A stretch of 64,000 nt of DNA. Source: Agrococcus casei LMG 22410 (GTDB lineage Bacteria; Actinomycetota; Actinomycetes; Actinomycetales; Microbacteriaceae). The stretch lies in contig NZ_FUHU01000035.1 of assembly GCF_900163565.1 (NCBI RefSeq), positions 1 to 64,000 on the forward strand, read 5' to 3'. The notes under the pieces were generated by a model. That model was not told where the DNA came from. It searched no databases and was given only the letters and a program-made list of their open reading frames with translations. Of the stretch, positions 35,044 through 54,396 are shown in pieces; the first letter of the stretch is position 1, and every line of letters starts with the position of its first letter. The position numbers were made by a program, and so were the translations under genes.

Positions 35044-35055
35044 CCCCCCAAAATA

Positions 35056-35102
35056 GTCGAAAAACTCTGGTGTTTGACCGTCAAACACCAGAGTTTTTCG
35101 AC
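35056..35102. repeat. dispersed palindrome, class B copy 1 (terminator-like)
   Basis: Perfect 23-bp arms around a single central base, with core GTTTGACCGTCAAAC. The flanks are GTCGAAAAACTCTGG and its complement. It starts 2 bp past the stop of the acetyltransferase gene and ends 13 bp before the TrmH start, so it can terminate the upstream transcript. It differs from the other two class B copies by AAAAA/TTTTT in place of AATAA/TTATT, changed on both arms. Confidence 0.8.
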
Positions 35103-35103
35103 A

Positions 35104-35598
35104 CTAGCGGTGGGCTTCGAGTGCGTCGCCGGTGAGGCGCATGGTGTCCCAGCCGTCCATCGGGAAGGCGCCGAGCGAACGGTAGAACGCGATCGACGGC
35201 TCGTTCCACTGCAGCACGCTCCACTCGACGCGCTGGTAGCCGCGCTCGGTGGCGATCTCGGCGAGGTTCACGAGCAGCGCCTTGCCGAGGCCGCTGCCGC
35301 GCGCATCCTGTCGCACGTAGAGGTCTTCGAGGTAGATGCCGTGGGTGCCCTCCCACGTCGAGTAGTTGAGAAACCACAGCGAGAAGCCGTCGATGCGGCG
35401 GCCGCTGCCCTCTTCGGCGTCGGCGACGTGCGCGAACAGCGCCGGGTTCTCGCCAAAGAGCTGGCCGTGCAGGGTCTCGGGCGTGAGCTTCACGGCATCA
35501 GGTTCGCGCTCGTATACGGCGAGCTCGATGACGAGGTCGACGATCTCTGCGACGTCGTCGGGAGTGGCTTCACGGATGCGCGGGTGCATGCGCATCAC
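35104..35598 (-). CDS. GNAT acetyltransferase (spermidine/spermine acetyltransferase-like)
   Basis: This 164-residue GNAT N-acetyltransferase uses acetyl-CoA to modify an amine. The order IREATPDDVAEIVDLVIELA, GIYLEDLYVRQDARGSGLGK (acetyl-CoA P-loop RxxGxGK) and VEWSVLQWNEPSIAFYRSLG is characteristic of the SSAT-like branch. The start region offers GTG/ATG at 35598/35595. It follows a paralogue after 10 bp (same operon), with about half its positions recognisably shared. Substrate, perhaps a polyamine or small amine, is inferred only from family resemblance. Confidence 0.88.
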   Translation of the reverse strand: MMRMHPRIREATPDDVAEIVDLVIELAVYEREPDAVKLTPETLHGQLFGENPALFAHVADAEEGSGRRIDGFSLWFLNYSTWEGTHGIYLEDLYVRQDARGSGLGKALLVNLAEIATERGYQRVEWSVLQWNEPSIAFYRSLGAFPMDGWDTMRLTGDALEAHR

Positions 35599-35608
35599 AG
35601 TATCGCGG

Positions 35609-36154
35609 TCAGGCGGCCGCGGGTGCTGCTGGGGCCGGGCCCGCGAGTGCTGCGACAGCGGCTTTGTCGAGCTTGTAGATGTCCCAGTCGCTCATGGGGC
35701 CTGCGCCCTGCGAGACGTAGAACTGGGCGCCCGAGACGTTCGACTTCAGCACCATCCACTGGATGTGGCCGTACTGGTGCTCGTCGGCGATCACGGCGAG
35801 GTTGCGCAGCAGTGCCTTGCCGGCACCGGTGCCGCGCGACTCGGGGCGCACGTAGAGGTCTTCGAGATGCATGACCTCGCTGCCCTCCCACGGCGAGAAC
35901 GCGGCGTACCAGAGCGAGTAGCCGTTGAGGCTGTGGGGCGCGTCGGCCGGAGCCTCGACGACGCGTGCCGTGAGCGGCGATGTGCCGCTGAAGATCTGGT
36001 CGGCGAGCTGCTGCTCGGTGACCGTGACGCGGTCGCGCTCACCGTGATATTCGGCGAGGTCGCGGATCATCTCGAGCAGCTCAGGAATGTCGTCCTGGGT
36101 CGCCGCGCGGATGACGGGCTCGTGGACAGCTGACTCAGTGATGGTTCGTTGCAT
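35609..36154 (-). CDS. GNAT acetyltransferase, tandem paralogue
   Basis: This 181-residue GNAT protein has the same plan as its downstream neighbour: IRAATQDDIPELLEMIRDLA, HLEDLYVRPESRGTGAGKAL (acetyl-CoA loop) and IQWMVLKSNVSGAQFYVSQG. It carries a short Ala/Pro tail. The pair probably arose by tandem duplication and then diverged; both belong to the SSAT-like branch. It is first gene of the two-gene operon that ends at the palindrome at 35056. Confidence 0.87.
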   Translation of the reverse strand: MQRTITESAVHEPVIRAATQDDIPELLEMIRDLAEYHGERDRVTVTEQQLADQIFSGTSPLTARVVEAPADAPHSLNGYSLWYAAFSPWEGSEVMHLEDLYVRPESRGTGAGKALLRNLAVIADEHQYGHIQWMVLKSNVSGAQFYVSQGAGPMSDWDIYKLDKAAVAALAGPAPAAPAAA

Positions 36155-36279
36155 ATCAACGACGGTACACGCGTGGTTCTTGCGCCGTAACCCCTTTTGC
36201 GCTCGCTACTGGCAGATTCGCACATTTAGTGCGCCAGCCCATCCGATCGCGCAAAACCATGCTGAACTACTGTGGAGTC

Positions 36280-37053: not shown

Positions 37054-37111
37054 CAGGTGATGCTCGGGTGATCGGAAGGTGGCGTCGAGCCGCCGCAAGT
37101 ACCTTCTAGGC

Positions 37112-37621: not shown

Positions 37622-37675
37622 TGTTGCGAAGAACGCACCGGTTTGACTGTCAAACCGGTGCGTTCTTCGCAACAT
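37621..37675. repeat. dispersed palindrome, class A copy 1 (bidirectional terminator-like)
   Basis: Perfect 27-bp arms around one central base, with core GTTTGACTGTCAAAC, flanked by ATGTTGCGAAGAACGCACCG and complement. It fills the gap exactly between the stop codons of the lipoprotein and the convergent ATPase gene. Compared with the other class A copies it has GAAGAAC/GTTCTTC rather than GAAAAAC/GTTTTTC, a compensated change. Confidence 0.85.
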
Positions 37676-39316
37676 TCAGAGGTTGAGACCCGGGATGGCA
37701 GCCAGCAGCTCCCGCGTGCACTCCGCCTGCGGCTGCTCGAAGATCTGCTCGGGCGTGCCCGACTCGACGATTCGGCCGCGCTGCATCACATGCACCTCGT
37801 GCGAGATCATGCGCACCACCGCCAGGTCGTGGCTGATGAACAGGTAGCTGAGCCCCAGGTCGCGCTGCAGATCGGTGAGCAGCTCGAGGATCTGCGCCTG
37901 CACCAGCACGTCGAGCGCCGACACCGCCTCGTCGAGCACCACCAGATCTGGGTCGAGCGCGAGCGCCCGCGCAATCGCGACGCGCTGCCGCTGACCTCCC
38001 GAGAGCTGATGCGGATACCGCGGCCCGTAGTCAGCCGCCAGCATCACGTCGTCGAGCAGCTGCCCGACCTTCTTCGCCCGCTCTGCTCGAGAGCCGATGC
38101 GGTGCACCTTCAGCGGCTCCTCGATCAGCTCGGCGACCGTGTACCTCGGGTCGAGCGAGGCGAACGGATTCTGAAACACCGGCTGCACCTTGCGCCGGAT
38201 GCCCATGAGCTCGCGCCGTTTCAGCGTGCTGATGTCGTCGCCGGCGATCTCGACCGTTCCCTCGGTCGCATCTTCGAGGCCGAGCAGCACGCGCGCGGTC
38301 GTCGACTTGCCAGAGCCCGACTCGCCCACGATCGACACCGTGCGGCCGCGCGGAATCGTGAAGCTCACCTCACGAGCAGCCCAGAACGGCTCTGCCTGAC
38401 CGCGGATGCGGTACGACTTTCCGAGGCCGGTCACGCGGGCGAACGGTTCCGGGTCAGCGTCCGCGCCACCGGCAGCGGCACCAGCACCAGCAGCAGCACC
38501 GGCAGCGGGCTTCTCGACGAGCGACGTCGTCATGAAGCTCGGAGCCGCCTCGACCAGCCGCTTCGTGTACTCGTGCTTCGGCTGCTCGAGAATCTGCTTC
38601 GCAGCACCCTGCTCGACAACCTCGCCGCGATACATCACGAGCACCCGGTCGGCGCGCTCGACAGCGAGCGGCAGGTCGTGCGTGATCAGAATGACGGATG
38701 CGCCGAGCTCTTCTGTGAGTGCGTCGAGGCGGTCGAGCACCCGGCGCTGCACCGTCACGTCGAGGGCGCTGGTGGGCTCGTCGGCGATGAGCAGCCGCGG
38801 CTGGCACGCGAGCCCCATGGCGATCAGCACGCGCTGCCGCATGCCGCCGGAGAACTCGTGCGGATACTGGTCGATGCGCTGCTCGGCGTCGGGAATGCCG
38901 ACCATCTCGAGCAGCTCGACCACCCGCTGCCGCTTGTTCTCGCCGCCGGCGCCGTGGGCCCGCAGCACTTCGAGAATCTGGTCGCCGATGCGGTGCATCG
39001 GGTTGAGGTTCGACATCGGGTCTTGCGGCACGAGGCCGATCTGCGCACCGCGGAGGCTGTTGAGGTCGCGCTCGGCCATCGTCGTGATCTCGGCGCCGTC
39101 GAAGCGCACCGAGCCGCCCGAGATGCGGCCGTTGCTCGCGAGCAGCCGGTTGAGGCTGGCGGCGATCGTCGACTTGCCAGACCCCGACTCGCCCACGATC
39201 GCGAGCGTCTCGCCGGGCAGCACCTCGAACGAGACGCCCTTGATCGCCTCGAGCTCGCCGCGGGCGGTCGAGAAAGCGACTCGCAGGTCGTCGACCTTGA
39301 GCAGTGGTTCGGTCAC
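37676..39316 (-). CDS. fused DppD-DppF-type ATPase of the putative muropeptide ABC transporter
   Basis: This 546-residue protein with two complete ABC ATPase domains energises peptide-type import. Domain 1 has Walker A GESGSGKSTI, signature FSGGMRQRV and Walker B LLIADEPTSALD. Domain 2 has GESGSGKSTTARVLLGLEDA, LSGGQRQRVAIARAL and LVVLDEAVSALD. A Gly/Ala-rich linker (AAAGAGAAAGGADADPEP) joins them. Start GTG 39316 has AGGAGG upstream and overlaps the stop of the serine hydrolase by 3 bases. It is last in the operon with SBP, permeases, murQ and anmK. The fusion of the two usual ATPase subunits is common in actinobacteria. Confidence 0.9.
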   Translation of the reverse strand: MTEPLLKVDDLRVAFSTARGELEAIKGVSFEVLPGETLAIVGESGSGKSTIAASLNRLLASNGRISGGSVRFDGAEITTMAERDLNSLRGAQIGLVPQDPMSNLNPMHRIGDQILEVLRAHGAGGENKRQRVVELLEMVGIPDAEQRIDQYPHEFSGGMRQRVLIAMGLACQPRLLIADEPTSALDVTVQRRVLDRLDALTEELGASVILITHDLPLAVERADRVLVMYRGEVVEQGAAKQILEQPKHEYTKRLVEAAPSFMTTSLVEKPAAGAAAGAGAAAGGADADPEPFARVTGLGKSYRIRGQAEPFWAAREVSFTIPRGRTVSIVGESGSGKSTTARVLLGLEDATEGTVEIAGDDISTLKRRELMGIRRKVQPVFQNPFASLDPRYTVAELIEEPLKVHRIGSRAERAKKVGQLLDDVMLAADYGPRYPHQLSGGQRQRVAIARALALDPDLVVLDEAVSALDVLVQAQILELLTDLQRDLGLSYLFISHDLAVVRMISHEVHVMQRGRIVESGTPEQIFEQPQAECTRELLAAIPGLNL

Positions 39317-40416
39317 GCAGTGCCTCCTGAATTGCTGTTGAGTCGTGCGTCGAATGCGGCCAGGCCCGCTCGCCAGAGCTGGTCGACCGGGGCCAGGCGC
39401 GAGGCGGCGACCGGCTCGGCGTCGTGCAGACGGTTCGAGAGCCACGTCACCACGAGCGAGGGCTGCTCTTCGGTTGCAGGCGAGACGCCCACGAACGTGC
39501 CCGTGAAGCCGGGGTGCCCCACCAGGGTGCGCCGGCATCCGTCCCACTCGATGTCATAGACGCGAACGCCGCGTCCGATGCCGTTCACGGGCTCTTCGGC
39601 CAGCTCTTCGGCGATCTCGAGCAGCAGCTCGCCGAGGGAGAGCAGCCCCTCGGCCGTGCTGAACCAGCCGGCGTGACCGGCCGCGGATCCGTACGCGTGA
39701 TGCGCATTGCAGTCGTTCGTCTCGCCCTGAATGACCTCGGTGCGCCACGCAAAGCCATCACCATCGGCATCCACCGGATACGGCAGCCCAGTCGCCACCA
39801 TCTCGCGCTCGATCGCGTCGCCGACGCTCGAAGCGGCGCACGGCGACGGCACTCCGGCCCGCTCGTCGGCGAACTCTCGTCTGAACGCCGGACCGAGCAC
39901 GCTGCGCACGGCATCCGGGTAGGGCGTGCCGGTCAGCTCTTCGATCACAGCCGCGGCCACCTGCATCCCGAGATCTGAGTAGACGGTCTCGGTGTCAGGA
40001 GCCGACGCCGGCTCGTCAGCCAGGATGCTCGCGATCGGATCAAAGCCCGCAACACCAGCGCCCGCTTCGAGATACAGCGGCTTCCACGGCCGAAAGCCGC
40101 CGCGATGCCGCAGCAGCTGATCGACCGTCACCGAGCCATACTCCCCGGCCCGCCCGCCAAGCACGTCAGCCAGCGTCGTCTGCCACTCCACAAGCCCCGC
40201 CCGCACCAGCACGCACAGCGTGAGCGTCGTGACGAGCTTGCTGACCGACGCCAGATCATGCCAGTGGCCGACGGTCATCGGCTCGCTGGGCTGCAGTCGC
40301 GCAAGGCCCTCGCAGGCGACGTGCCGCGCATCCGCGACCTGTACCGCCATGCAGGCACCCGGAGGCACGTGCCAGTCGGCGTCCTGGTCGAGCAGCCGCA
40401 CGTCAAGCTCATGCAT
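39313..40416 (-). CDS. beta-lactamase-fold serine hydrolase, AmiE/YbbE-like
   Basis: This 367-residue serine hydrolase of the class C beta-lactamase/penicillin-binding fold has SxxK as SVSK (Ser57, Lys60), YSD at 146-148 as the YxN equivalent, and HPG near residue 303 as the third motif. No signal peptide is visible, so it acts in the cytoplasm. In Bacillus, AmiE (YbbE), a member of this fold, removes stem peptides from MurNAc and is encoded beside murQ. The same context here (directly after anmK with an 8-base overlap) suggests an N-acetylmuramoyl-L-alanine amidase acting on imported muropeptides. A D-amino-acid peptidase activity is the alternative. Confidence 0.82.
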   Translation of the reverse strand: MHELDVRLLDQDADWHVPPGACMAVQVADARHVACEGLARLQPSEPMTVGHWHDLASVSKLVTTLTLCVLVRAGLVEWQTTLADVLGGRAGEYGSVTVDQLLRHRGGFRPWKPLYLEAGAGVAGFDPIASILADEPASAPDTETVYSDLGMQVAAAVIEELTGTPYPDAVRSVLGPAFRREFADERAGVPSPCAASSVGDAIEREMVATGLPYPVDADGDGFAWRTEVIQGETNDCNAHHAYGSAAGHAGWFSTAEGLLSLGELLLEIAEELAEEPVNGIGRGVRVYDIEWDGCRRTLVGHPGFTGTFVGVSPATEEQPSLVVTWLSNRLHDAEPVAASRLAPVDQLWRAGLAAFDARLNSNSGGTA

Positions 40417-41584
40417 CAGCTGCCCCCTGAATCACGAGCGACGTGGGCGCGGGCCCAGCCGAAAGCGACAGCGGGTGCACGCCCGGCGTGATCGACCCCA
40501 AGACGGATGCGCGAGCAGCGCCGGTCGCAGACGCCACCGATCCAGCGTGGCCGTGGGCGGTGAGCCAGCCGAGCAACGCCATGAGCACGGCCTCTTTCGA
40601 GTCGGGTTCGAGCCCGAGTTCGCTCGACGAGGCGATGCGCACATCGGGCAGCAGCTGCTCGAGGCGTGCCATGAACGCGGCGTTGTGCACGCCGCCGCCC
40701 GAGGCGAACAGCTCAGCCAGGCCCTCACCCCGGACAGCGTCTGCCACGGTCTGGGCCGACAGCTCGGTGAGCGTGGCGACGAGGTCTGCGTCGCTCACCG
40801 AGAGCCCGTCCAGCGCGCCCTCGACGAAATCGAGGTTGAACACCTCTTTGCCGGTGCTCTTCGGGGCCGCAAGGCCGAAGTATTCGTGTGCGAACATCCG
40901 CTGCAAAAGCACCTGGTCGACCGTGCCGGATGCCGCGATCGCTCCCCCGTCGTCGTATCCCGAGGCGTGCAGGCCGCGGTCAAGCACCACCGCGTCGACG
41001 AGGGCGTTTGCGGGCCCGGTGTCCCAGGCGCGCACCTGCTCGCCGACGACCGTGACGTTGGCGATGCCGCCGAGGTTCAGCAGCCCCGTGACGCCCGGCC
41101 GCGAGCCGCCGACGAGTGCGTCGATGGTCGATGCGAGCGGGGCGCCCTGGCCGCCGGCTGCGATGTCGCGAGCGCGGATGTCGCTGACCACGGTGAGGCC
41201 GGTGGCCTCGGCGATCCAGGCGGGCTGGCCGAGCTGCAGCGTGCCGCGGGCGGTCTGCCCCTCGACCCAGTGGAAGACGGTCTGCCCGTGCGAGACGACG
41301 AGGTCGATGCCATCGAAGCGCCGCTGCATGTCGGCCGCGACCAGCGCGAAGGCCTGGCCGATGCGGGTGTCGGCCATCGTGACGGCGTCGATCGTGGTCT
41401 GGTTCGGCGGCAGCAGCGCGATGATCGCCTGCCGCAGCTCGGGCTCGTACTGCTGCGAGTCGGCCGCGACCACGGTGGCGTGCAGCTGCGAGCCGCGCTG
41501 CTCGAAGTCGACGACCGCTGCGTCGATGCCGTCGTGTGACGTCCCCGAGATCAGCCCCAAAACACTCATGCCCTGCTCGCTCAT
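40409..41584 (-). CDS. anmK: 1,6-anhydro-N-acetylmuramic acid kinase
   Basis: This 391-residue ASKHA-fold kinase opens and phosphorylates 1,6-anhydroMurNAc to MurNAc-6-phosphate with ATP. The ATP-loop motif is GLISGTSHDGID (residues 10-21, family consensus GTSxDGxD). VVSHGQTVFHW, QLGQPAWIAEATGL and LLNLGGIANVTV are highly conserved. DTGPANALVD and the C-terminal FASGGGVHNAAFM confirm the family. It overlaps murQ by 4 bases, so its product is handed directly to the etherase. Length fits. No MurNAc kinase (MurK/MurP) is in the operon, which points to anhydro-sugars or their peptides as the imported form. Confidence 0.95.
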   Translation of the reverse strand: MSEQGMSVLGLISGTSHDGIDAAVVDFEQRGSQLHATVVAADSQQYEPELRQAIIALLPPNQTTIDAVTMADTRIGQAFALVAADMQRRFDGIDLVVSHGQTVFHWVEGQTARGTLQLGQPAWIAEATGLTVVSDIRARDIAAGGQGAPLASTIDALVGGSRPGVTGLLNLGGIANVTVVGEQVRAWDTGPANALVDAVVLDRGLHASGYDDGGAIAASGTVDQVLLQRMFAHEYFGLAAPKSTGKEVFNLDFVEGALDGLSVSDADLVATLTELSAQTVADAVRGEGLAELFASGGGVHNAAFMARLEQLLPDVRIASSSELGLEPDSKEAVLMALLGWLTAHGHAGSVASATGAARASVLGSITPGVHPLSLSAGPAPTSLVIQGAADA

Positions 41585-42480
41585 TCGCCCTCCTCCAGAA
41601 CCGTGCGAAGTCTGCCGCCGGCTGCCACGAGCATCGCATCAGCGGCTTCGCAGCTCACGTCGCGCTCAATCATGACAACCGCCACTGACACCCGACCCTC
41701 GCTCGACTCGAGCGCTTGCTCTGCGGTGCTGCGCCGCGCATCCGTGATCTGCTGCACGATGCGCACCGCGCGCTCCCGCAGCTTCTCGTTGGTCGCCGAC
41801 ACGTCGATCATGAGCGAGCCGTAGGTCTTGCCGAGCCTGATCATCGTGATAGTCGAGAACATGTTGAGCACGAGCTTCTGCGCCGTGCCCGACTTGAGCC
41901 TGGTCGATCCGCTGATCATCTCGGGGCCGACGATGATCTCGATCGGGTGCTCGACGTGGCTCGAGAGCTCGCTGCTCTCGTTGCACGCGAGGCCGACGGT
42001 CAGCGCGCCGAGCTCGCGGGCGTAGTCGCACGCGCCGATGACGTATGGCGTGCGGCCGCTCGAGGTGACGCCGATCACGACGTCTGCGCTCGTCAGCCCG
42101 TACGCCTCGAGGTCGGCGGCTCCGGCTGCCGGGTCGTCTTCTGCGCCCTCGATCGCGTTCTGAATCGCGCTCTCGCCGCCAGCGATGACGCCGATGACGC
42201 GGCCGTGCTCAGAGAACGTCGGCGGAACCTCAGATGCATCGAGCACGCCGATGCGGCCCGGGGTGCCCGCGCCGACGTAGAACAGCCGGCCACCGCTCTG
42301 CACGCGCGCAGCGGCCGCCTCGATGGCCGGAACAATCTCCGCGAGCGCTCGCTCGACCGCAAGCGGCACGGTCTGGTCGGCCTCGTTCATGGCCCTCGCG
42401 AGCGACTCGACAGAGCGCTGGTCGAGGTCGTCGAAGGCGCGGTCGACGCTCTCGGTCGTCAGGGAACTCAGGTCAGACAT
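41581..42480 (-). CDS. murQ: N-acetylmuramic acid 6-phosphate etherase
   Basis: This 299-residue SIS-domain lyase removes D-lactate from MurNAc-6-phosphate to give GlcNAc-6-phosphate. The family signature is FYVGAGTPGRIGVLDASEVP, and DASE supplies the catalytic Glu84. IEGAEDD gives the second Glu near 111-114. SSGRTPYVIGACDYA and GSTRLKSGTAQKLVLNMFST are also diagnostic. It follows the permease order SBP-permease-permease and overlaps anmK. Its substrate should be produced by AnmK. The usual adjacent nagA/nagB genes are absent, so GlcNAc-6-P would be used elsewhere. Confidence 0.97.
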   Translation of the reverse strand: MSDLSSLTTESVDRAFDDLDQRSVESLARAMNEADQTVPLAVERALAEIVPAIEAAAARVQSGGRLFYVGAGTPGRIGVLDASEVPPTFSEHGRVIGVIAGGESAIQNAIEGAEDDPAAGAADLEAYGLTSADVVIGVTSSGRTPYVIGACDYARELGALTVGLACNESSELSSHVEHPIEIIVGPEMISGSTRLKSGTAQKLVLNMFSTITMIRLGKTYGSLMIDVSATNEKLRERAVRIVQQITDARRSTAEQALESSEGRVSVAVVMIERDVSCEAADAMLVAAGGRLRTVLEEGE

Positions 42481-42483
42481 CGG

Positions 42484-43365
42484 TCACCTGTCCTCTCGTG
42501 TCACGTCGAGCACGTCGCTCAGGCCATCCCCCAGCAGGTTCAGGCCGATGATCAGCAGCACCAGCGCGATGCCCGGGCCGACCAGCAGCCAGGGCGCGAT
42601 CGTGACGAGGGTCTGCGATTCGAGCACCATCGAGCCGAGCGAGGGTGCCGGCGGCGGGGTGCCGAGTCCGAGGTAGCTGAGCGATGCCTCGGTGAGCACG
42701 GCCCACGACAGCGACAGCGTCAGCTGCACGATCACGATGTTCGAGATGTTCGGCAGAATGTGCCGCCACACGATCGCGAGCGGACCCATGCCGGTCGCCT
42801 TCGCCGCGTTGACGTACTCGACCTCGCGCAGCGCCAGCACCGGGCCGCGGGCGACTCTGATGAAGATCGGCACGAACACGACGGCCACGGCGATCGAGAC
42901 GGTGAACCAGTTGCGAGCCAGAACGGATGCGAGCGTCAGTGCCAGCAGCAGCGACGGGAACGCGAACAGCACGTTCGAGACGGCACCCACGATGACGTCG
43001 AAGACGCCGCGCAGATAGCCGGCGAGCACGCCCAGCCCGATGCCGACGACGGCGCTGATGACCGTTGCGACCACGGCGACCATGAGCGAGTTGACGATGC
43101 CGGCGGCGACGCGCGAGAGCTGGTCGCGGCCGAACTGGTCGGTGCCGAGCCAGTGCGCTGCGCTCGGGGCCTGCATGCGCGCCGATGCGTCTTGCGCGAG
43201 CGGGTCATACGGCATGAGGCCGAAGAAGCTGAGCACGCCGAGCAAGACGATGAGCAGCACGATACACAACCCCACGGCGCCCGCGCCATTGCGCATGAGC
43301 TTCGTGAAGCGGCGCGACTTCGGCTTCTGAGCGTCAGCAGCCTGTGTGATGATCGCGGCGGTCAT
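42484..43365 (-). CDS. peptide-type ABC transporter permease (DppC-like)
   Basis: This 293-residue inner-membrane permease has six helices. DppC-family signatures are LGTDQFGRDQLSRVAAGIVN, the EAA-type loop YVNAAKATGMGPLAIVWRHI-LPN, and the end SWAVLTEASLSYLGLGTPPP. ATG 43365 overlaps the stop of the DppB-like gene (ATGA). Three bases separate it from murQ. Within this operon it should import MurNAc-peptides or anhydro-muropeptides rather than ordinary dipeptides. Confidence 0.92.
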   Translation of the reverse strand: MTAAIITQAADAQKPKSRRFTKLMRNGAGAVGLCIVLLIVLLGVLSFFGLMPYDPLAQDASARMQAPSAAHWLGTDQFGRDQLSRVAAGIVNSLMVAVVATVISAVVGIGLGVLAGYLRGVFDVIVGAVSNVLFAFPSLLLALTLASVLARNWFTVSIAVAVVFVPIFIRVARGPVLALREVEYVNAAKATGMGPLAIVWRHILPNISNIVIVQLTLSLSWAVLTEASLSYLGLGTPPPAPSLGSMVLESQTLVTIAPWLLVGPGIALVLLIIGLNLLGDGLSDVLDVTREDR

Positions 43366-44333
43366 TCTGCCCTCACTCTCGGGTCGATGCGTCGGTAGAG
43401 CAGGTCGGTCGCGAGATTCACGAGCACGAACAGCAGCGCGATGATCAGCACGGTGCTCTGCACGACCGCGAAGTCCTTCTGGTTGATCGCGAGCAGCACC
43501 TGGCGACCGAGGCCGGGCAACGAGAAGATCTGCTCGATCACGACAGCGCCGCCGAGCAGGAACCCGAACTGCATGCCTGTCATGGTGACGATCGGCAGCG
43601 ACGCGTTGCGCAGAATGTGGTTCCAGCGCACGCGCTTGACCGAGATGCCCTTGGCGCGGGCGGTGCGCACGAAGTCGAGCTCGCTCACTTCGAGAAACGA
43701 CGCGCGAGTGGTTCTGAGAATGGGCGCCGCGACGCTGAAGCCCAGCACGGCAGCCGGAATGATCATCTGGTTGAAATTCAGCAACGGATTCTCCCACGGA
43801 TGCGCGTACGGGAGTCCGTTCGGGTTGAAACCCAGCAGCTGGGCGGCGATCGTGAGGATCGCGGCACCGAGCAGGAACGTCGGCACGCCGAGGCCCAGCA
43901 GGCTGATCGACTGACCGAGCCAGTCGCGGAACTTGCCCTTGGCGGCCGCGGCCAGCACGCCGAAGCCGACCCCGATGACCAGTGCGATGATGATGGCCAG
44001 CAGCGCCAGCTGAAAGGTGACCGGCAGCGACTGCATGGTCATGTTCGCGACCGTCTCCTGGCCCCTCGTCGAGATGCCGAGGTTGCCGGTGAGCAGCTGC
44101 CCCGCCCAGCTGAAGAACTGCACGAACAGCGGCTGGTCGATGCCGTAGTACGCCTCGAGTGCCGTGCGCTGCTCCGGCGAGAGTGCGGCTGCTTCCGTGC
44201 CGTATGCGGCCTGGATCTGGTCGCCCGGCAGCGCCCGCAGCATGATGAACACGAGCACGGCCACGCCGATCAGTGTTCCGATCGCCGCCAGGATGCGCCG
44301 AAGCACAGGCGACTCGAAGAGTTTGCGAAGCAC
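43362..44333 (-). CDS. peptide-type ABC transporter permease (DppB-like)
   Basis: This 323-residue permease has about six helices, starting LRRILAAIGTLIGVAVLVFI. Family motifs are LRALPGDQ, YGIDQPLFVQFFSWAGQLL with GNLGIS, the loop DFVRTARAKGISVKRVRWNH-ILRNA, and IEQIFSLPGLG. GTG 44333 with GAAAGGGG upstream is preferred; the open frame continues upstream over low-complexity codons in the 100-bp gap after the SBP gene. Functions with its partner permease and the fused ATPase. Confidence 0.92.
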   Translation of the reverse strand: MLRKLFESPVLRRILAAIGTLIGVAVLVFIMLRALPGDQIQAAYGTEAAALSPEQRTALEAYYGIDQPLFVQFFSWAGQLLTGNLGISTRGQETVANMTMQSLPVTFQLALLAIIIALVIGVGFGVLAAAAKGKFRDWLGQSISLLGLGVPTFLLGAAILTIAAQLLGFNPNGLPYAHPWENPLLNFNQMIIPAAVLGFSVAAPILRTTRASFLEVSELDFVRTARAKGISVKRVRWNHILRNASLPIVTMTGMQFGFLLGGAVVIEQIFSLPGLGRQVLLAINQKDFAVVQSTVLIIALLFVLVNLATDLLYRRIDPRVRAE

Positions 44334-44391
44334 GAGGCCCCTTTCATCAGTGCGATGCCGCGCACCTGCAGTGGTTGCGGTGCGGGCCGCA

Positions 44392-44423
44392 GCTGCGGTG
44401 CCGCGTTCGTGCGACACCGCAGC
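44392..44423 (-). terminator. intercistronic hairpin after the SBP gene
   Basis: GCTGCGGTG (44392-44400) and CACCGCAGC (44415-44423) form a 9-bp stem with a 14-nt loop in the only sizeable gap of the operon. Such hairpins commonly stabilise SBP mRNA or partly terminate, giving more binding protein than permease. Confidence 0.5.
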
Positions 44424-44433
44424 GAGGGCGGTT

Positions 44434-45984: not shown

Positions 45985-46228
45985 GTCAGCTCGTTTCTCG
46001 TGTTTCGTCAACGAGCGTTCCATGGTGCGGCGCGTCGTTGAACCGTCGTGGTGAGCCTGTGGGGCTCCTTGTGTGTGCTTGCGTGGTGCTTGCTGTGTTG
46101 CTTGCGTGTTACGAAAGTACACGGTTTCTGAATTTAGGGTTACGTTACTACATACTGCACAATGTCGATAGTGGCGTGTCGGGAATCTCGAAGGCGAGAG
46201 CCCGACGGCGAATGTGAAGGGAGCCTCC
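45985..46228. promoter_or_regulatory. divergent control region of the muropeptide operon and its regulator
   Basis: The region is locally AT-rich at 46108-46165 (most of the flanks are GC-rich). It carries GTTACG twice, as GTTACGAAAGTAC (46108-46120) and GTTACGTTAC (46139-46148), 31 bp apart. These are candidates for RpiR/MurR binding. The SBP leader contains TGCTTGC three times (46076, 46087, 46099). Promoter boxes cannot be fixed with confidence. Confidence 0.45.
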
Positions 46229-47107
46229 GTGACTGAGGCAGCACGCAAGGGCGCAGAGCCCATCATCGCGACGCGCGCCGCAATGCCCGCGCTTCGACCG
46301 GCTGAGCGCCGAGTCGCGCAGCTGCTGCTCGACGACCCGGCCGGGTTCTCGAAGATGAGCGCCGGCTCCGTTGCCCGCGCCGTGTCGACCTCGTCGACGA
46401 CCGTCATCAGGTTTCAGCACGCGATCGGCTACGAGCGATTCGTCGACCTGCGCCACGACCTGGCGCTCGACGCCGCCCGCGAGCGCCGTGCGACCGAGTC
46501 GATTCCGGCCGAGCCGCTCGACATCCAGCAGGGCGACACGCTCAAGCAGGTGATCGCGAAGATCGCGCGCGACGAGACGCTGTCGATCGCCGAGACTGCC
46601 GACGTGCTCTCGAGCGAGGCGCTGGCCGAAGCGGTGGAGGTCGTGACCGAGGCGACTCGAGTCGACATCTTCGGCATCGGCGCGAGCGGCATCGCGGCGA
46701 CCGACTTCCAGCGCAAGCTCACCCGAATCGGCCGCATTGCAATCGAGTGGTCGGATGCGCACGCAGCATGGACGAGCGCCTCCGTTCTCGAGACAGGGGC
46801 GGTCGCCATCGCCATCTCGCACTCGGGCCGCACCTTCGACACGATCGAGTATCTGCGGCTGGCGCGGGCGGCTGGCGCGAAGACCGTGGTGATCACGAAC
46901 TTTCCCGACTCCCCCATTGCCGAGCACGCGGATGTGGTGCTGCAGACCGCTGCGCGGGAGTCGCCGCTCAGGTCAGGAGCACTCGGCAGTCGCATCGCGC
47001 AGCTGATGGTCATCGACGCCCTGTTCGTCGGGGTTGTACAGCAGCGGTACGACGAGTCGATGGTCGCCATTCGCACGAGCTACGCCGCCGTGCGCCAAGC
47101 CACCTGA
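46229..47107 (+). CDS. murR: RpiR family regulator, probable MurR
   Basis: This 292-residue regulator has an N-terminal RpiR helix-turn-helix (LRPAERRVAQLLLDDPAGFS, then GSVARAVSTSSTTVIRFQHA) and a C-terminal SIS sugar-phosphate domain (IFGIGASGIAATDFQRKLTR, AIAISHSGRTFDTIEYLRLA). GTG 46229 has GAAGGGAG upstream. In E. coli and Bacillus the RpiR protein MurR represses murQ-murP and is released by MurNAc-6-phosphate. Divergence from an operon with murQ and anmK makes the same role likely. The symbol is by context. Its stop codon is part of the following palindrome. Confidence 0.85.
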   Translation: MTEAARKGAEPIIATRAAMPALRPAERRVAQLLLDDPAGFSKMSAGSVARAVSTSSTTVIRFQHAIGYERFVDLRHDLALDAARERRATESIPAEPLDIQQGDTLKQVIAKIARDETLSIAETADVLSSEALAEAVEVVTEATRVDIFGIGASGIAATDFQRKLTRIGRIAIEWSDAHAAWTSASVLETGAVAIAISHSGRTFDTIEYLRLARAAGAKTVVITNFPDSPIAEHADVVLQTAARESPLRSGALGSRIAQLMVIDALFVGVVQQRYDESMVAIRTSYAAVRQAT

Positions 47108-47163
47108 TGTTGCGAAAAACGCACCGGTTTGACAGTCAAACCGGTGCGTTTTTCGCAACATCA
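47105..47163. repeat. dispersed palindrome, class A copy 2, containing both stop codons
   Basis: Perfect 29-bp arms around one central base (core GTTTGACAGTCAAAC). The outermost triplets are TGA on both strands. The left one is the murR stop; the right one is the true stop of the convergent membrane-protein gene. A GC-rich stem followed by TTTTT in both directions makes it a bidirectional terminator. Confidence 0.85.
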
Positions 47164-47785
47164 GTTCGTGGTGAGCTGCCCGAACATGTGCAGAGCGAGA
47201 GCTCCCCCTGCCCCCGCCGCCACCGCAGCCGCTGCTGGCAGCACCAGCGCATCCGATCCGCGCATCCGATCCGCGCATCCGCGTCTCTTCTGCGTCGAGC
47301 CCGTCGAGCCTCGTCCACCCGGCGAATGCCCGCTCGCGCTGCGGCATGATGAGCATGACGATGCCGCCCGCGGCCGCGATCAGCAGCAGCGAGACCACGA
47401 TCTTCAGCGGTTCGACCACGCCTTGGCCTGCGACGGCGTCGAGGAAGACCGCGGCGCCCGTGCCGCCGACGACCGCGGGCAGCGCCCACCAGGCGGCGGG
47501 AGGGCCGAAGCCGCGGGCGATCATGATGCTCCAGAACACGGCGCCTGCGATGCCGACGAGCCCGACCCCCAGGCCGCCGAGGTTCGCGACCTGGCAGACG
47601 TCGTCGGCGTACTGCTCGCACACGCCCTGGTCGACCGAGAAGAAGCCGGCGATCGAGACGACCGCGAGGGTGACGCCGCCGCCGAGCACGAACCAGCTGA
47701 GCAGCAGCCCGACCCAGCCCGTGCCGACGCTGCCGCGCACGGTGGTGCGGGGCTTGCGGAAGAGCTTCTGTGAGAGGCGGAGCAT
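47161..47785 (-). pseudogene. small membrane protein, frameshifted by a 13-bp duplication
   Basis: The product starts MLRLSQKLFRKPRTTVRG and has three clear membrane helices: GLLLSWFVLGGGVTLAVVSI, VGIAGAVFWSIMIARGF and VVSLLLIAAAGGIVMLIM. A fourth follows in another frame. In the present frame the sequence after RMRGSDARIG becomes Gly/Ser-rich and runs on through the palindrome into the antisense of murR. Removing one 13-bp repeat unit at 47247-47280 restores RGSDALVLPAAAAVAAGAGG, then ALALHMFGQLTTN and a TGA at 47161-47163. That stop sits exactly at the palindrome edge. Function unknown; no family recognised. Could be phase-variable or a sequencing/assembly slip. Confidence 0.7.
47247..47280. 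repeat. 13-bp direct repeat GCGCATCCGATCC, 2.6 copies
   Basis: Units at 47247-47259 and 47260-47272, with a partial third at 47273-47280. The unit is not a multiple of three, so copy number sets the reading frame of the membrane-protein gene. The unit contains the genome-frequent heptamer CGCATCC. Confidence 0.85.
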
Positions 47786-47813
47786 GGTGACCCTATGATC
47801 TCACCGCCCGTTT

Positions 47814-47864
47814 GTTGCGAAAAACGCACCGGTTTCACCGTCAAACTGGTGCGTTTTTCGCAAC
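47814..47864. repeat. dispersed palindrome, class A copy 3 (imperfect)
   Basis: Arms of 25 nt with two mismatches near the centre (GGTTTCAC against GTCAAACT). It abuts the stop codon of the AEC permease gene (TGA at 47865-47867) and lies upstream of the membrane-protein start. It is the most diverged copy of the family. Confidence 0.8.
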
Positions 47865-48788
47865 TCAACCGTGCATGAGAGCGGCGATCACCAGCATCAC
47901 CGGCAGCGAGGCGAACGTCGTCAGCAGAATCACGTCGCGTGCGATGATCTCGCCCGTTCGGTACTGCAGCGCGTACTGATACATGTTCTGCGCGGTCGGC
48001 AGCGCCCCAAGCACCGTCACCGCATACACCTGCTCGGGCGGCAGCTGAAACACGAACTGCGCGAACACCCACGCGACCACCGGCATCACGACCGCCTTCA
48101 GACCCGCAGCGAACAGCACCTCGCGACGACCCGTGCCCGGCGCCAGCGGCTTCGAACCGCTCAGCGACGCACCGAACGCCAGCAGCATCAGCGGAACCGC
48201 AGCTCCGCCGAGCGTGTCGAGCGGCTGCACCACGAACTCCGGCAGCTCGAACCCGGTCACAGCGACGACCAATCCCAGCAGCGACGCGATCACAATCGGG
48301 TTGCGCACCGGCTGCGTCAGAATGCGTGCAGCCGACAGCCGCCCCTGCTTCTGCATGTCGAGCGCGCCGAGCAGCAGCGGCGCCATGATGATCAGCTGCA
48401 GCAGCATGATCGGTCCCACGTACTGCGCGTCGCCGATCACGTAGATCGCCACCGGCAGGCCGATGTTGTTGATGTTCGTGTAGACCGAGAGGTTCGTGCC
48501 CATCGCGAGGCGACCCTTGTCCTTGGTGAACCAGAGCCTCGCGACGACGTAGTAGATGATCCCGACCGTCACGATCGCGAGCGCCGAAGCGCCCAGCACT
48601 CCCGAGAACACGACCGCGACGTCTGAGCGCGAGATGATCATGAACAGCAGCGCCGGGCTCGCCGCGAAGAAGGCGACGCGGTTGAGCACGATGCGGCTCT
48701 CGCTGGTGACGATGCCGATGCGCGCGAGCAGCCAGCCCACGAAGATGACGAAGGCGATGATGCCGAAGCCCATCAGCACGCCCTGCAA
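47865..48788 (-). CDS. AEC family transporter (auxin efflux carrier type)
   Basis: This 307-residue membrane protein has about 10 helices. Typical AEC features are FVGWLLARIGIVTSESRIVL near the N-terminus, GTNLSVYTNINNIGLPVAIY (helix break with Asn/Gly/Pro) and LGALPTAQNMYQYALQYR before the last helices. These carriers move organic acids such as malate or aromatic compounds. The TTG at 48788 is supported by GGGAGG upstream; an ATG lies 15 bp further in. Single gene between pyrE and the frameshifted gene, no substrate clue. Confidence 0.88.
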   Translation of the reverse strand: MQGVLMGFGIIAFVIFVGWLLARIGIVTSESRIVLNRVAFFAASPALLFMIISRSDVAVVFSGVLGASALAIVTVGIIYYVVARLWFTKDKGRLAMGTNLSVYTNINNIGLPVAIYVIGDAQYVGPIMLLQLIIMAPLLLGALDMQKQGRLSAARILTQPVRNPIVIASLLGLVVAVTGFELPEFVVQPLDTLGGAAVPLMLLAFGASLSGSKPLAPGTGRREVLFAAGLKAVVMPVVAWVFAQFVFQLPPEQVYAVTVLGALPTAQNMYQYALQYRTGEIIARDVILLTTFASLPVMLVIAALMHG

Positions 48789-48825
48789 GCAGACCTCCCG
48801 GTTGCGGTGTTCTGTGGCGGATGCC

Positions 48826-49377: not shown

Positions 49378-49387
49378 GAAGTCGAGC

Positions 49388-49807: not shown

Positions 49808-49843
49808 GCTTCGACCCTAACCCACGCTCTCGTGGCCGTTTGT

Positions 49844-49890
49844 GTCGAATAACTCTGGTGTTTGACGGTCAAACACCAGAGTTATTCGAC
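49844..49890. repeat. dispersed palindrome, class B copy 2, in a divergent promoter region
   Basis: Perfect 23-bp arms around one base, core GTTTGACGGTCAAAC, flanks GTCGAATAACTCTGG. Unlike all other copies it does not follow a stop codon. It lies between two genes transcribed away from it. Each strand carries TTGAC at the centre, which could double as a -35 box. Confidence 0.8.
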
Positions 49891-49904
49891 GCTGCTTGCG
49901 GGGC

Positions 49905-49974: not shown

Positions 49975-49979
49975 TGCAC

Positions 49980-50315
49980 ATGCTCGCAAGCGACCTGGTT
50001 CGCAGCACGATCGACCTCGTGATCCTGAGCGTGCTCACCGAAGGCCCCTCATACGGCTACGCCATCGCCAAGCGCGTCGACCAGATCTCAGAGGGCGAAT
50101 ACACGACCAAAGAGACCACCCTCTACGCGGCGATCCGCAGGCTCGAAGCCCGCGGCGACCTCACCTCGTTCGCCGGCTCAGAGTCCGGCGGCCGCCCCCG
50201 CACCTACTACAGCCTGACCGAGTCAGGAACAGCCCACCTTCACCAGCGCATCGCCGACTGGCACACCGCCCAGCGCGCGATCGCACGGTTTCTCACCCGA
50301 GAGGCACATCAATGA
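49980..50315 (+). CDS. PadR family transcriptional regulator
   Basis: This 111-residue PadR regulator starts with the winged helix (VRSTIDLVILSVLTEGPSYG, then YAIAKRVDQISEGEYTTKET, TLYAAIRRLEARGDL). The recognition phrase GGRPRTYYSLTESG forms the wing. ATG 49980 fits the strong ribosome site. Its stop overlaps the start of the membrane protein gene (ATGA). Such PadR/permease-prefix pairs are usually autoregulated through repeats upstream, as found here. Confidence 0.93.
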   Translation: MLASDLVRSTIDLVILSVLTEGPSYGYAIAKRVDQISEGEYTTKETTLYAAIRRLEARGDLTSFAGSESGGRPRTYYSLTESGTAHLHQRIADWHTAQRAIARFLTREAHQ

Positions 50316-51301
50316 ACGACGCAATCCACACCTACATCAACGGCCAGTTCACGACGCTGCCACGCACGCCCGAAGTCGAGCGGGCACGCCAGGAGCTGCT
50401 GCAGATGAGCGAAGACAAGTACACCGAGCTGGTCGCAGCCGGCGTCAGCGCGAACGAGGCGACCGGCCGCGTGATCACCGAGTTCGGCAACCTCGACGAG
50501 CTCGCCGACGACCTCGGCATCCGCGCAGAGTTCGACGGAGTCTCAGCTGTTCCGCCGGTTCCGATCGCAACGAGAGCGGATGCCGACAAGGCCCTCGCAG
50601 GCGGCCGTCGCGGAGGTCTTCTGGTCGGCGGCGGGGTGCTCGTGATCCTGCTCGCCCTCGCCGCTGTCTCAGCGATGAGCGATCAGCTGATGACGCCCGC
50701 GGTGCTATTTCCGGCAGTCGCGATCGCGGTCGGGCTGTTCATCTTCGGAGCGTTCTCGATGCGTCCCGTCGGCCCCTTCAAGACCGGAGACGTGCGACTC
50801 GACTTCAGCGACGCATCCCACTTCCGTCAGCTTGCCGAGCGCAGCCAGTGGATGTTCATCACCGGTCTTGTCGTCGGCGTTGGCCTGCTTGTGCTGGCGC
50901 CTGGCGTGTCTGGCATTCTGAGCGGCCTCGACCTCGACGGAGCCGCGGGGCCCGGCTTTCTCGTGATGATCGGGCTCGGCGTATTCGTGCTTGTCGCTTC
51001 GGCAAATCAGCACGGCACGCTGCAGACACTCGCGAAGGCTGACAGGCCTGCCGCATCGATCGGCGCCGCATTCGGCGGATTCGGCGGCTCGTCTGAGGCA
51101 GAGAAGCGCACCAATTGGCGCATCGGCCTGATCGCACCGATCTACTGGCCGGCGATCGTCGCGGTGTACCTCGGGTGGAGCTTCATCTCGCGCGACTGGC
51201 ACATCACCTGGATCATCTGGCCCATCGCCGGCATCGCGTTCGCGGTGTTCGTCGGCATCCTGCGGGCGGCCTCGCAGTGGAATGGCCGCCAAGCCTCCTG
51301 A
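50312..51301 (+). CDS. membrane protein with permease-prefix (DUF1700-like) N-terminus
   Basis: This 329-residue protein has a helical cytoplasmic domain at residues about 1-75 (VERARQELLQMSEDKYTELV, then ANEATGRVITEFGNLDELAD), the permease prefix domain found next to PadR regulators. Six helices follow in pairs, including GLLVGGGVLVILLALAAVSA and IIWPIAGIAFAVFVGILRAA. It probably senses or responds to membrane state under PadR control; no enzymatic motif is visible. It ends 24 bp before a class B palindrome. Confidence 0.85.
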   Translation: MNDAIHTYINGQFTTLPRTPEVERARQELLQMSEDKYTELVAAGVSANEATGRVITEFGNLDELADDLGIRAEFDGVSAVPPVPIATRADADKALAGGRRGGLLVGGGVLVILLALAAVSAMSDQLMTPAVLFPAVAIAVGLFIFGAFSMRPVGPFKTGDVRLDFSDASHFRQLAERSQWMFITGLVVGVGLLVLAPGVSGILSGLDLDGAAGPGFLVMIGLGVFVLVASANQHGTLQTLAKADRPAASIGAAFGGFGGSSEAEKRTNWRIGLIAPIYWPAIVAVYLGWSFISRDWHITWIIWPIAGIAFAVFVGILRAASQWNGRQAS

Positions 51302-51325
51302 GCTGACGCGTCACGCTGACCCGAT

Positions 51326-51380
51326 CAGTGTCGAATAACTCTGGTGTTTGACTGTCAAACACCAGAGTTATTCGACACTG
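51326..51380. repeat. dispersed palindrome, class B copy 3 (bidirectional terminator-like)
   Basis: Perfect 27-bp arms around one base, core GTTTGACTGTCAAAC. It lies between convergent genes, and the stop codon TAA of the minus-strand gene (51368-51370) is inside the right arm (GTCGAATAA), so the last codons of that gene are encoded by the palindrome. Confidence 0.85.
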
Positions 51381-51934: not shown

Positions 51935-51971
51935 GAGTCTGTCAGGCTTCGGGTGCTTATACGCTGGATGC

Positions 51972-52784
51972 ATGCGCATTGCCTCGTGGAACGTCAACTC
52001 GATTCGCACACGCGTCGGCCGCGTCGTCGACTGGCTCGAGCGCAGCGACACCGACGTGCTGTGCATGCAGGAGATCAAGTGCAAGCCCGAGCAGTTTCCG
52101 TACGAGCGGTTCGAGCAGGCCGGCTACGAGGTGCAGGCGCACGGCCTCAACCAGTGGAACGGCGTCGCGATCGCCTCTCGTCTTCCGATGACGGATGTGC
52201 GGCGCGACCTGCCAGCGCAGCCCGGCTATGCGAACACCGGCGATCCGATTGTCGAGGCTCGCGCGATGTCGGCTGAGGTCGAAGCCGTGCGGCTCTGGAG
52301 CCTCTACGTGCCCAACGGCCGCGAGCTCGGTCACGCCCACTACGACTACAAGCTCGAATGGCTGCGCACGCTGCGCGATGAAGCTGTGCGCGCATCCGAC
52401 CAGCTCGTCGCCTACCTCGGCGACTACAACATCGCCCCGCTCGATCACGATGTGTGGAGCATGGCCGCCTTCGAGGGATCGACCCACGTCTCGCAGCCCG
52501 AGCGCGACGCGTTCAACGCGCTGATCAGCGCGGGTCTGACCGACGTCGTGCGCGACTACGCCGAGGGCTATACCTACTGGGACTACAAGGCAGGCCGCTG
52601 GCAGAAGAACGAAGGCATGCGCATCGACTTCGCACTGACAACGCCCGCGCTCACGGAGCTCGTGACGGATGCGCACATCGACCGAGACGAGCGAAGCGGC
52701 GACTCCCCGAGTGATCACGTGCCGGTTGTGGTCGACTTCGACCTCGAGACCGAGCTCGACGACGATCGGCCGATGATCTTCTAG
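51972..52784 (+). CDS. xthA: exodeoxyribonuclease III
   Basis: This 270-residue AP endonuclease/3'-5' exonuclease of the ExoIII family works in base excision repair. MRIASWNVNSIRTRV, then VLCMQEIKC (metal Glu34), LWSLYVPNGRELGH, LGDYNIAPLDHDVW (catalytic Asp/Asn) and the C-terminal SDHVPVVVDF (catalytic Asp-His) are all intact. The ATG is followed at once by the family sequence. It is divergent from the DinB-like gene with almost no gap, so promoter elements overlap that gene. Confidence 0.95.
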   Translation: MRIASWNVNSIRTRVGRVVDWLERSDTDVLCMQEIKCKPEQFPYERFEQAGYEVQAHGLNQWNGVAIASRLPMTDVRRDLPAQPGYANTGDPIVEARAMSAEVEAVRLWSLYVPNGRELGHAHYDYKLEWLRTLRDEAVRASDQLVAYLGDYNIAPLDHDVWSMAAFEGSTHVSQPERDAFNALISAGLTDVVRDYAEGYTYWDYKAGRWQKNEGMRIDFALTTPALTELVTDAHIDRDERSGDSPSDHVPVVVDFDLETELDDDRPMIF

Positions 52785-52956
52785 CTGCCGGCAGCATGCC
52801 GAAACCGCTGTTTCGGTGTTTTTTGCCACTTCGCGCTCGATGATCGGCTCGCGCTCGAAACGCGCAATGCTGCGGGCCGCTCGCGCAACCCTTTTGCGCG
52901 AGCGGCTCTCTACGCTTGAAACACACAAGTTTTCGGCAATGAGAAGAGGCAGATCG

Positions 52957-54342
52957 ATGTCGATGGAAGCCACGGCAGTGAGCGCCGCAGAGCTCGCACA
53001 GCAGCCCGCATGGCAGCGCATGAAGTCGGCAATCGCCGAGCTGCAGCCCATGCAGAACAAGAAGGGCGAGGTCGAGAACACCGCCGACCACGCACGCGCC
53101 GCAGAGCTGATCGGCGAAATCGTTGCGACCATCCGCGAGCTTGCTCCGCTGTTCCCGCACAACGCCGAGTACATGGACCAGGTCGCGCTCGACTTCGAGC
53201 GCTGGGTCGAGGCAGGCGTCGGCACCGAGCCCGACTTCCTCGACTCGCTCGTGCTCTTCCAGCCGCAGCAGCACCGCATCGACGGACTCACGCACCTCGT
53301 GATCTTTCCGATGCTCACGCAGAACGGATCGCGCGAGCGCAAGGTCGAGGCAGTGCTCGTTGAGGCCATCTGGCCTGAGTTCATCGACGCGCTCGAGCAG
53401 GGCGACTACTCGAACAAGCTCTTCGTGCCGCTGCGATTCCTCGACTTCACCGCTGGCTACGACACCAACTCGGCAGTGCTGTTCCCCGAGACCGTCGCCA
53501 TTCGCGAGGTGCCTTCGTTCACGTGGGGCGCGATCTTCCAGGACCGCGAGGCCGCCCGCTACCGCCGCGTCGTCAAGGCCGCGACCGAGATCACGAAGCT
53601 CGAACTGCCCCCACTGGCTGCCGAGATGCTCGAAGACCAGCACCTCACAGAAGAGACCTTCGTGATGTGGGACCTCATTCACGACCGCACGCACATGCGC
53701 GGCGACCTGCCGTTCGATCCGTTCATGATCAAGCAGCGCATGCCGTTCTTCCTCTACTCGCTCGAAGAGCTGCGCTGCGACCTGACCGCATTCCGCGAAT
53801 CAGTCAAGATCATGCGCGAGCTCGAGAAGAAGGAAGGCCGCGACGAGGCTGACGAGAAGCAGCTGAAGATGGCGCAGGCCACGCAGTACGCGATCATCTT
53901 CGACCGCATCTTCCGCTTCACCGTCACCGGCGGCCGCGTGCGCAACTACGACGGACTCGGCGGCCAGCTGCTGTTCGCGTGGATGCACCAGAAGCGCGTG
54001 CTGCACTGGACCAACAACGCCCTCTCGTTCGACTGGGAAGACGTGCCCGACGTCGTCAACCAGCTCGGCGAGGCGATCGAACTGCTCTACTGGAAGTCGA
54101 TCGACCGCTCGAAGCGCGCCCACTGGGTCGCCGCCTACGAGCTCGTGTCGAGCGTCGTTGAGCCGCACCCCGCATCCGTCTGGAAGACCGGAAACCTGCC
54201 GTTCGAGGGTGCTCCGCGCGAGATGACCGACCTGGTGATGGACGACGAGTTCCCGCTGTCGATGTTCTACGAGGCGTTCGAGAAGAAGATTCGCGACGTC
54301 ATCGAGTCGACGAAGGGCATCACGGGCGCTTCCGAAGCCTGA
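52957..54342 (+). CDS. DUF6421-like family protein
   Basis: This 461-residue soluble protein resembles the actinobacterial DUF6421 family by length and general sequence. ATG 52957 has AGAAGAGG upstream. Notable stretches are PLFPHNAEYMDQVALDFERW, PQQHRIDGLTHLVIFPMLTQ, VPSFTWGAIFQDREAARYRR and DLIHDRTHMRGDLPFDPFM. The His/Asp-rich segment HDRTHMRGD could bind metal (inference). No signal peptide or membrane helix is seen. It is monocistronic, following xthA after 172 bp. Biological role unknown. Confidence 0.7.
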   Translation: MSMEATAVSAAELAQQPAWQRMKSAIAELQPMQNKKGEVENTADHARAAELIGEIVATIRELAPLFPHNAEYMDQVALDFERWVEAGVGTEPDFLDSLVLFQPQQHRIDGLTHLVIFPMLTQNGSRERKVEAVLVEAIWPEFIDALEQGDYSNKLFVPLRFLDFTAGYDTNSAVLFPETVAIREVPSFTWGAIFQDREAARYRRVVKAATEITKLELPPLAAEMLEDQHLTEETFVMWDLIHDRTHMRGDLPFDPFMIKQRMPFFLYSLEELRCDLTAFRESVKIMRELEKKEGRDEADEKQLKMAQATQYAIIFDRIFRFTVTGGRVRNYDGLGGQLLFAWMHQKRVLHWTNNALSFDWEDVPDVVNQLGEAIELLYWKSIDRSKRAHWVAAYELVSSVVEPHPASVWKTGNLPFEGAPREMTDLVMDDEFPLSMFYEAFEKKIRDVIESTKGITGASEA

Positions 54343-54345
54343 GTT

Positions 54346-54394
54346 GTTGCGAAAACGCACCGGTTTGACTGTCAAACCGGTGCGTTTTTCGCAG
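54346..54394. repeat. dispersed palindrome, class A copy 4 (one-base bulge)
   Basis: Core GTTTGACTGTCAAAC with 24-nt arms. The left arm has AAAA, the right TTTTT, leaving one bulge, and the outermost AAC is AGC on the right. It separates the stop codons of two convergent genes by a few bases on each side. Confidence 0.8.
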
Positions 54395-54396
54395 CT

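Follow-up and report, generated by a model that had tools for sequence, protein, structure and literature searches.

Why does one short palindrome recur, nearly letter for letter, between unrelated genes of a bacterial chromosome? The question is raised by a 64,000-nucleotide (nt) stretch of Agrococcus casei LMG 22410 (assembly GCF_900163565.1, contig NZ_FUHU01000035.1, positions 1 to 64,000; hereafter the window), which sits on contig C41 of a 2.79-Mb genome in 48 contigs. An initial annotation had listed seven such palindromes, and we located all of them in the window (Table 1). We consider it moderately probable that they are the dispersed, non-autonomous part of a repeat/enzyme pair, the other part being a gene for a Vsr-fold, PD-(D/E)XK-like (MTES_1575/DUF559-like) protein.

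The palindrome family of A. casei

Each window unit is 51 nt long (one is 50 nt) and consists of two 25-nt arms around a single unpaired centre base, with all four bases represented among the copies. The arms are of class A (GTTGCGAAAAACGCACCGGTTTGAC) or class B (GTGTCGAAAAACTCTGGTGTTTGAC), both with variants, and share the core GTTTGACNGTCAAAC, mutated in one copy as first described. Allowing up to two mismatches, this core occurs seven times in the window against 0.12 expected, and none of 100 shuffles reached seven. The seven hairpins have predicted energies of -38 to -54 kcal/mol, and Rfam gave no match within the window.

The family extends genome-wide. The core is present 28 times exactly and three times with one mismatch, and a covariance model built from 33 copies identified 35 separate loci: 16 on C41, nine on contig C48 and ten on six other contigs, so that C41 and C48 hold 25 of the 35 copies in 9.5% of the genome. 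These two contigs are probably chromosomal neighbours, judging from DUF6421 and dcd, carried on C41 and C48 in A. casei: of 15 congeners with the two on a single contig, 12 have them separated by 95-178 kb, and the exceptions, G003, G006 and G013, by more than 500 kb. When placement relative to origin and terminus was considered, one dif-like site was found, on C24. The 33 catalogued copies comprise 22 of class A, ten of class B and one odd class C, and their ends read GTTGCG/CGCAAC, GTGTCG/CGACAC or variants of these. The two classes first distinguished are thus real, but there are more than two: class C here, and a class D in congener G022 described below.

Outside the species, the exact core occurs once in one of 298 other family genomes sampled and in none of 23 congeners, and a 33-nt pattern had no match in GTDB contigs, where the species itself may be left out. 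No relative was found in viral contigs; class B had no match in plasmid and phage collections, and class A only weak matches there, outside the palindrome. A genus-wide covariance search, which scored 150 candidates per genome and whose blanks say little about distant types, returned one class D locus and one weak match in G022 and one weak match in G017. Identity of the core with parS, which we take it to resemble, was rejected: 213 loci contained no exact parS. Separately, a second small hairpin set with AGCGGGGGCTCG-like arms and a CCAC/GTGG centre has four members in the 164 kb of A. casei subjected to clustering (L016 19962, L018 2328, L021 6359 and 8555).

Several observations indicate how the copies are related. 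The same C.C mismatch and the same centre base recur in three copies on two contigs, which would mean that existing copies gave rise to others. At the conserved pstB/mutT junction, the stop codons of congener G011 are 15 nt apart as read; in A. casei the sequence runs stop, A, a 51-nt unit and 17 nt, and none of 21 congeners compared has a related palindrome there. The site of the unit at 47814-47864 corresponds in G022 to a gap of only about 28-35 nt with no palindrome. Both sites read as clean insertions of one unit. Near the position of the 49842-49892 copy, G011 has an unrelated hairpin, after a gene missing at this point in A. casei. Together with the shared mismatch, the two insertion sites uphold the earlier view in so far as the copies are a dispersed family related by copying and not terminators of independent origin. 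That view was to fail if relatives carried unrelated terminators at orthologous sites and no copy family existed elsewhere; the congener sites compared do hold unrelated hairpins or none, but the copy family is genome-wide and has a sister family in G022.

The flanks of 31 copies have a composition of their own: 60 of the 62 start with A or T next to the unit, and further out they tend to A, C and G-rich sequence, which may point to a preferred target or to outer repeat sequence that has degenerated. In some congeners, the intergenic site past mutT (L130-L148) has other motifs that look repeated, such as GTCGAGTAG...GTATCGAGAC, GAGGACGGATG and CGCAGAGTTCCGGCACTCTGCG. The mutT-type gene of G021, an assembly listed with 8% contamination, gave two equal-score matches (C3:14611-15561 and 378430-379380).

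A linked nuclease-like gene and its hairpins

In A. casei, two class B units, at C48 17984 and 19062, enclose a gene encoding a 314-residue protein, and the stop codon of this gene abuts a unit. Its homologue in G022 (61% identity) occupies a different locus, again between two palindromes, here of class D (L186 3949-3999 and 5040-5090), and its open reading frame (ORF) ends on the TGA of the core. Gene and palindromes are therefore linked in both species. All four aligned proteins match the MTES_1575 restriction endonuclease (REase) model with E values of 1 or lower, the best being 1.7e-8, and two of them match DUF559; PADLOC assigned mREase_II to two of the four and an AbiEi model to one. Residues D241, E252, E254, D261 and D268 are invariant in the four proteins and would fit a PD-(D/E)XK site; the MTES_1575 domain is described, in the part of PMC3710099 available, as a novel Vsr-type REase. 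The linked protein is a putative active nuclease and may recognise and spread the palindromes. It had no phage match and no relative on viral contigs, and three weak partial matches on plasmids.

Class D of G022 has the same 25+1+25 design, GGTGCGAAAAACTTCGAAACATGAC followed by N and the complement, with variants. Length, outer GCGAAAAAC and inner TGACNGTCA are the same as in A. casei units; the middle is different. Eight copies were found in 479,110 bases of G022 sampled. Three stand beside a DEAD-helicase gene, and two of these match A. casei copies in position: one, with similar flanks, stands some 210-230 nt ahead of the helicase gene, the other immediately upstream of conserved, promoter-like sequence belonging to an ABC-transporter operon. 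The two matched sites imply that the palindrome persists in place while its middle is replaced species-wide.

The nuclease-like gene was found in A. casei, G022 and 12 more congeners, 14 genes in all. The homologues of G003 and G004 lie near dcd, and one dcd flank examined in 18 more congeners (2.8 kb only in G020) yielded the gene in ten; G017 was left out of the examination of genes and units. A hidden Markov model run over 275 overlapping loci (3.43 Mb) returned the same 14 genes and two partial views of two of them. The lone class C palindrome (C48 130588-130638, L022) is 7 nt from the dcd stop in A. casei, and 12 congeners have the nuclease-like gene near dcd; this palindrome could be the trace of an ancestral site.

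Hairpin units of near-fixed length accompany each of the 14 genes, and the type of unit follows the nuclease clade. Within 350 nt, 13 of the 14 genes have a hairpin scoring at least 12, compared with 13.8% of 196 control intervals; six of the 14 have one on each side, compared with none of the 196. Shared 9-mers between the two flanks of a gene exceed the control (0.03 or less) in only six of 14 genes. GGTACC units, 46-48 nt long, occur within 500 nt of all ten genes of one group, 19 near genes and, elsewhere, two in G004 and two distinct ones in G005, where eight control hexamers gave seven matches in total over the ten genomes, five of them in G004. In G003 the hairpin reaching 12 differs from the GGTACC unit, which scored 10, and G019 has no hairpin in the score-12 scan yet possesses a GGTACC unit. 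CACATG units, 58-60 nt long, stand on both sides of the G018 and G023 genes, with one elsewhere in G018 and none for the controls; the DNA sampled from GGTACC and CACATG genomes is mostly near the gene, except in G004, G015, G018 and G009. Unit types were unmixed in the five genomes tested. Nine congeners without the gene in the DNA sampled (311 kb, of which 163 kb from G011) contain no unit of the three types. Placed jointly on the tree, the four labels require three changes, the minimum, a value as low in one of 200 shuffles (with G019 labelled 'none').

Placement of the copies and rival explanations

Table 1 Palindromic units of the 64-kb window and the block that two of them bound
Feature	Position	Context
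Class B palindrome	35054-35104	Between two minus-strand genes; 1-nt overlap with the stop of a GNAT gene (own gene call); predicted SpoU methylase start 10 nt away
Class A palindrome	37623-37673	Perfect 25-nt arms, GAAGAAC variant; fits between convergent stop codons 37619-37621 and 37676-37678
Class A palindrome	47109-47159	Perfect; pairing reaches 30-nt arms (47104-47164); 1 nt past the stop of the rpiR/SIS gene
Class A palindrome, mutated core (GTTTCAC)	47814-47864	Flush with the stop of membrane-transport gene 47865-48788
Class B palindrome	49842-49892	Divergent intergenic region between a small gene without assigned family and a PadR regulator
Class B palindrome, perfect	51328-51378	26 nt past the stop of gene 50312-51301
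Class A palindrome, 50 nt (left arm one base short)	54346-54395	Between the convergent stops of a DUF6421 gene and a PucR-type regulator gene
9.4-kb block bounded by two class A palindromes	37676-47107	ABC transporter, anmK-like and murQ-like genes, rpiR/SIS regulator

The main rival, which we judge rather unlikely, is that the units are plain bidirectional intrinsic terminators, one strong terminator having been copied or selected many times, and that the nuclease-like gene is bracketed as a hazardous gene in need of insulation. The placement of the copies speaks for it. According to our own simple gene predictor with four hand corrections, whose calls are approximate (the C24 copies and the C41 120521 copy were left out), 14 of 33 placed copies are in convergent, 15 in co-directional and four in divergent gaps. 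A gene 3' end adjoins 29 of the 33, within 5 nt of the stop codon in 23 of these 29 and within 30 nt in 28; among co-directional gaps ten of 15 copies lie within 5 nt of a stop, against 2.6 expected under random placement. Four predicted ORFs enter a unit by 24 nt and end at the core TGA (C21 33537, C34 59545, C41 78696 and C41 105644); ORFs of this kind give, by our own reading, C-termini such as VAKNAPV. Like bidirectional terminators, the units combine a hairpin, here of high predicted stability, with an A-tract and an often broken T-tract just past stop codons, and Streptomyces terminators, as described in the available portion of PMC12207403, likewise have long hairpins and weak U-tracts.

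The rival fares less well on other points. The copies are near-identical across unrelated loci, and four of the 33 lie in divergent gaps. T-runs of five occur in 26 of 44 class A arms and seven of 20 class B arms, but runs of only two or three in 15 of 44 and 13 of 20, respectively. The most variable position outside the class differences interrupts the T-run, which speaks against strict selection for termination, and a simple terminator scan flagged two of the seven window copies. Terminators would also leave unexplained that unit type tracks the nuclease clade when the labels are taken jointly, and that congeners yielding no gene yielded no unit either. The copies may terminate transcription, and this putative function is a likely reason for their retention.

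An improbable alternative is that the palindromes are protein-binding sites, used without mobility by the linked or another dimeric protein as operators or chromosome-organising sites. Near-perfect dyads with a TGACNGTCA-like centre in both A. casei and G022 would suit this, as would the concentration of copies on two contigs and the AbiEi-model match, AbiEi being a DNA-binding antitoxin; the copies, however, lie at gene 3' ends and not at promoters, 51 nt is long for an operator, and units measure about 47, 51 and 59 nt in different clades. Least probable of all are miniature inverted-repeat remnants of a classical DDE insertion sequence (IS) with ends equal to the palindrome arms: the inverted units, the two apparent clean insertions and the A/T bias of the first flanking base agree with it, but direct repeats at the borders are not in excess, the palindromes have no relative in plasmid, phage or viral collections, and class A arms are confined to palindromes, with essentially no lone copies and only four two-mismatch matches outside them. 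A full-length element with the same ends was found neither with the class A arm across the draft assembly (whose 48 contigs could hide a multicopy IS) nor with the class B arm in the sampled loci searched.

As causes of gene-order breaks the palindromes were rejected: 14 of 15 palindrome boundaries were non-conserved, as were 37 of 42 other boundaries (p = 1). The genes of the 9.4-kb block, in which the names anmK and murQ come from reading translations and not from a profile result, have no match in the corresponding part of G022 or in any other congener stretch included in the comparison. The palindrome-free part of the window contains two very long minus-strand ORFs, at 1713-11387 (3224 residues) and 28573-34317 (1914 residues).

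A proposed repeat-enzyme pair

Copying, clade-matched pairing and the exclusivity of unit types are most simply explained by a repeat-enzyme pair, which would resemble the repetitive extragenic palindromes (REPs) and their associated tyrosine transposases (RAYTs) without belonging to them. REP/RAYT is a known palindrome family with a dedicated enzyme, and the REP/REPIN and RAYT systems (REPtrons) have, in the portions available of PMC3116915 and PMC3733652, intergenic palindromes that vary from species to species, an enzyme gene with these repeats on its flanks, and dispersed copies. The repeat-flanked gene is present here with a nuclease-like protein in place of a RAYT, and extragenic dispersal is wide in A. 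casei and G022, whereas in G004, G005 and G018 only a few units lie elsewhere than near the gene. The differences are equally plain: there is no GTAG end tag, the palindromes are single and of near-fixed length, the linked protein is Vsr/PD-(D/E)XK-like, and a Y1 (IS200/IS605-like) transposase (PF01797) has no match in the A. casei genome, although five of 14 control genomes have one. The mobile element first proposed fits the linked nuclease-like gene, not the REP-associated transposase that was to be searched for as a test of mobility. The CGTC-tagged REPs, short palindromic families described in the accessible text of PMC3733652 as apparently without a dedicated transposase, differ in their end tag, which the A. 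casei family does not have, and in that the A. casei family has a linked enzyme-like gene. DNA uptake sequences in inverted pairs likewise form terminator-like hairpins (PMC2267715, in part), but many lone copies would be expected, and the class A arm alone is essentially absent from A. casei.

Several points weigh against a repeat-enzyme pair. The main gap concerns class A, whose 22 copies adjoin no nuclease-like gene in the DNA sampled; only class B does. The A. casei protein scores 23.9 bits against MTES_1575, under the Pfam cut-off of 38.2, the long G022 ORF has no Pfam match at E 0.01, neither protein has an NCBIfam match, and solved structures include no convincing relative (best E 0.12). 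In 31 copies direct flank matches, as a target-site duplication would leave, number four against 3.3 expected at 2 nt and do not exceed the expected number at 1 nt or at 3-6 nt. Wide dispersal was seen in A. casei and G022 only; in G022 the three helicase copies alone could be compared in position (the other five were not comparable), and the third of these (L186 1736) has no A. casei counterpart. Unit definitions were fixed after the first examples were seen, six of 11 inner branches of the tree are not resolved, and single labels are not significant, with 67 (GGTACC), 35 (CACATG) and 36 (51-nt type) of 500 shuffles as low. Twelve of the 14 genes were found by looking near dcd and, having that locus in common, do not count as independent; the points closest to independence are the three unit types and the three loci.

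Were the repeat-enzyme pair correct, the protein would recognise the palindrome cognate to it, whether as a duplex or extruded into a hairpin, and cut or nick DNA, and repair would copy the unit to new intergenic sites. Survivors would build up just past stop codons, at positions in which a 25-bp hairpin with A/T tracts does no harm or serves as a bidirectional terminator. The same copying would rewrite the arms in concert within a species. The paired arm changes that had been pointed out are real: over 30 distinct rows, standard pairs make up 96.7% of pair cells, and both sides have changed in 16 of 25 pairs, compared with 8.7 in shuffles. They had been taken to mean that the fold is selected, which does not follow, since template switching during replication can also rewrite arms to match (PMC8794818, available in part); selection of the dyad would give the same pattern, and paired changes alone prove no selected fold. 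Gene conversion between copies, also put forward earlier, is not clearly seen in a local form: for the 21 copies on C41 and C48, neighbours of the same class show no extra likeness (p 0.56-0.81), and over all classes permutation p values are 0.11, 0.12 and 0.04 at 3, 6 and 12 kb.

Searches of an open-licence literature library, whose coverage excludes most subscription papers, gave no report of such a pairing of palindrome and nuclease-like gene. In its boldest and still tentative form, our proposal is a new selfish system in which a Vsr-like nuclease would home on the palindrome specific to its clade and copy it, the two changing together and dispersed hairpins being rewritten in concert between sister species. 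If true, a palindrome family tied to a different enzyme fold, in 14 species and with three palindrome types, would point to more than one origin of repeat-enzyme pairs, and would offer a direct route to how short intergenic hairpins spread and how their arms stay matched.

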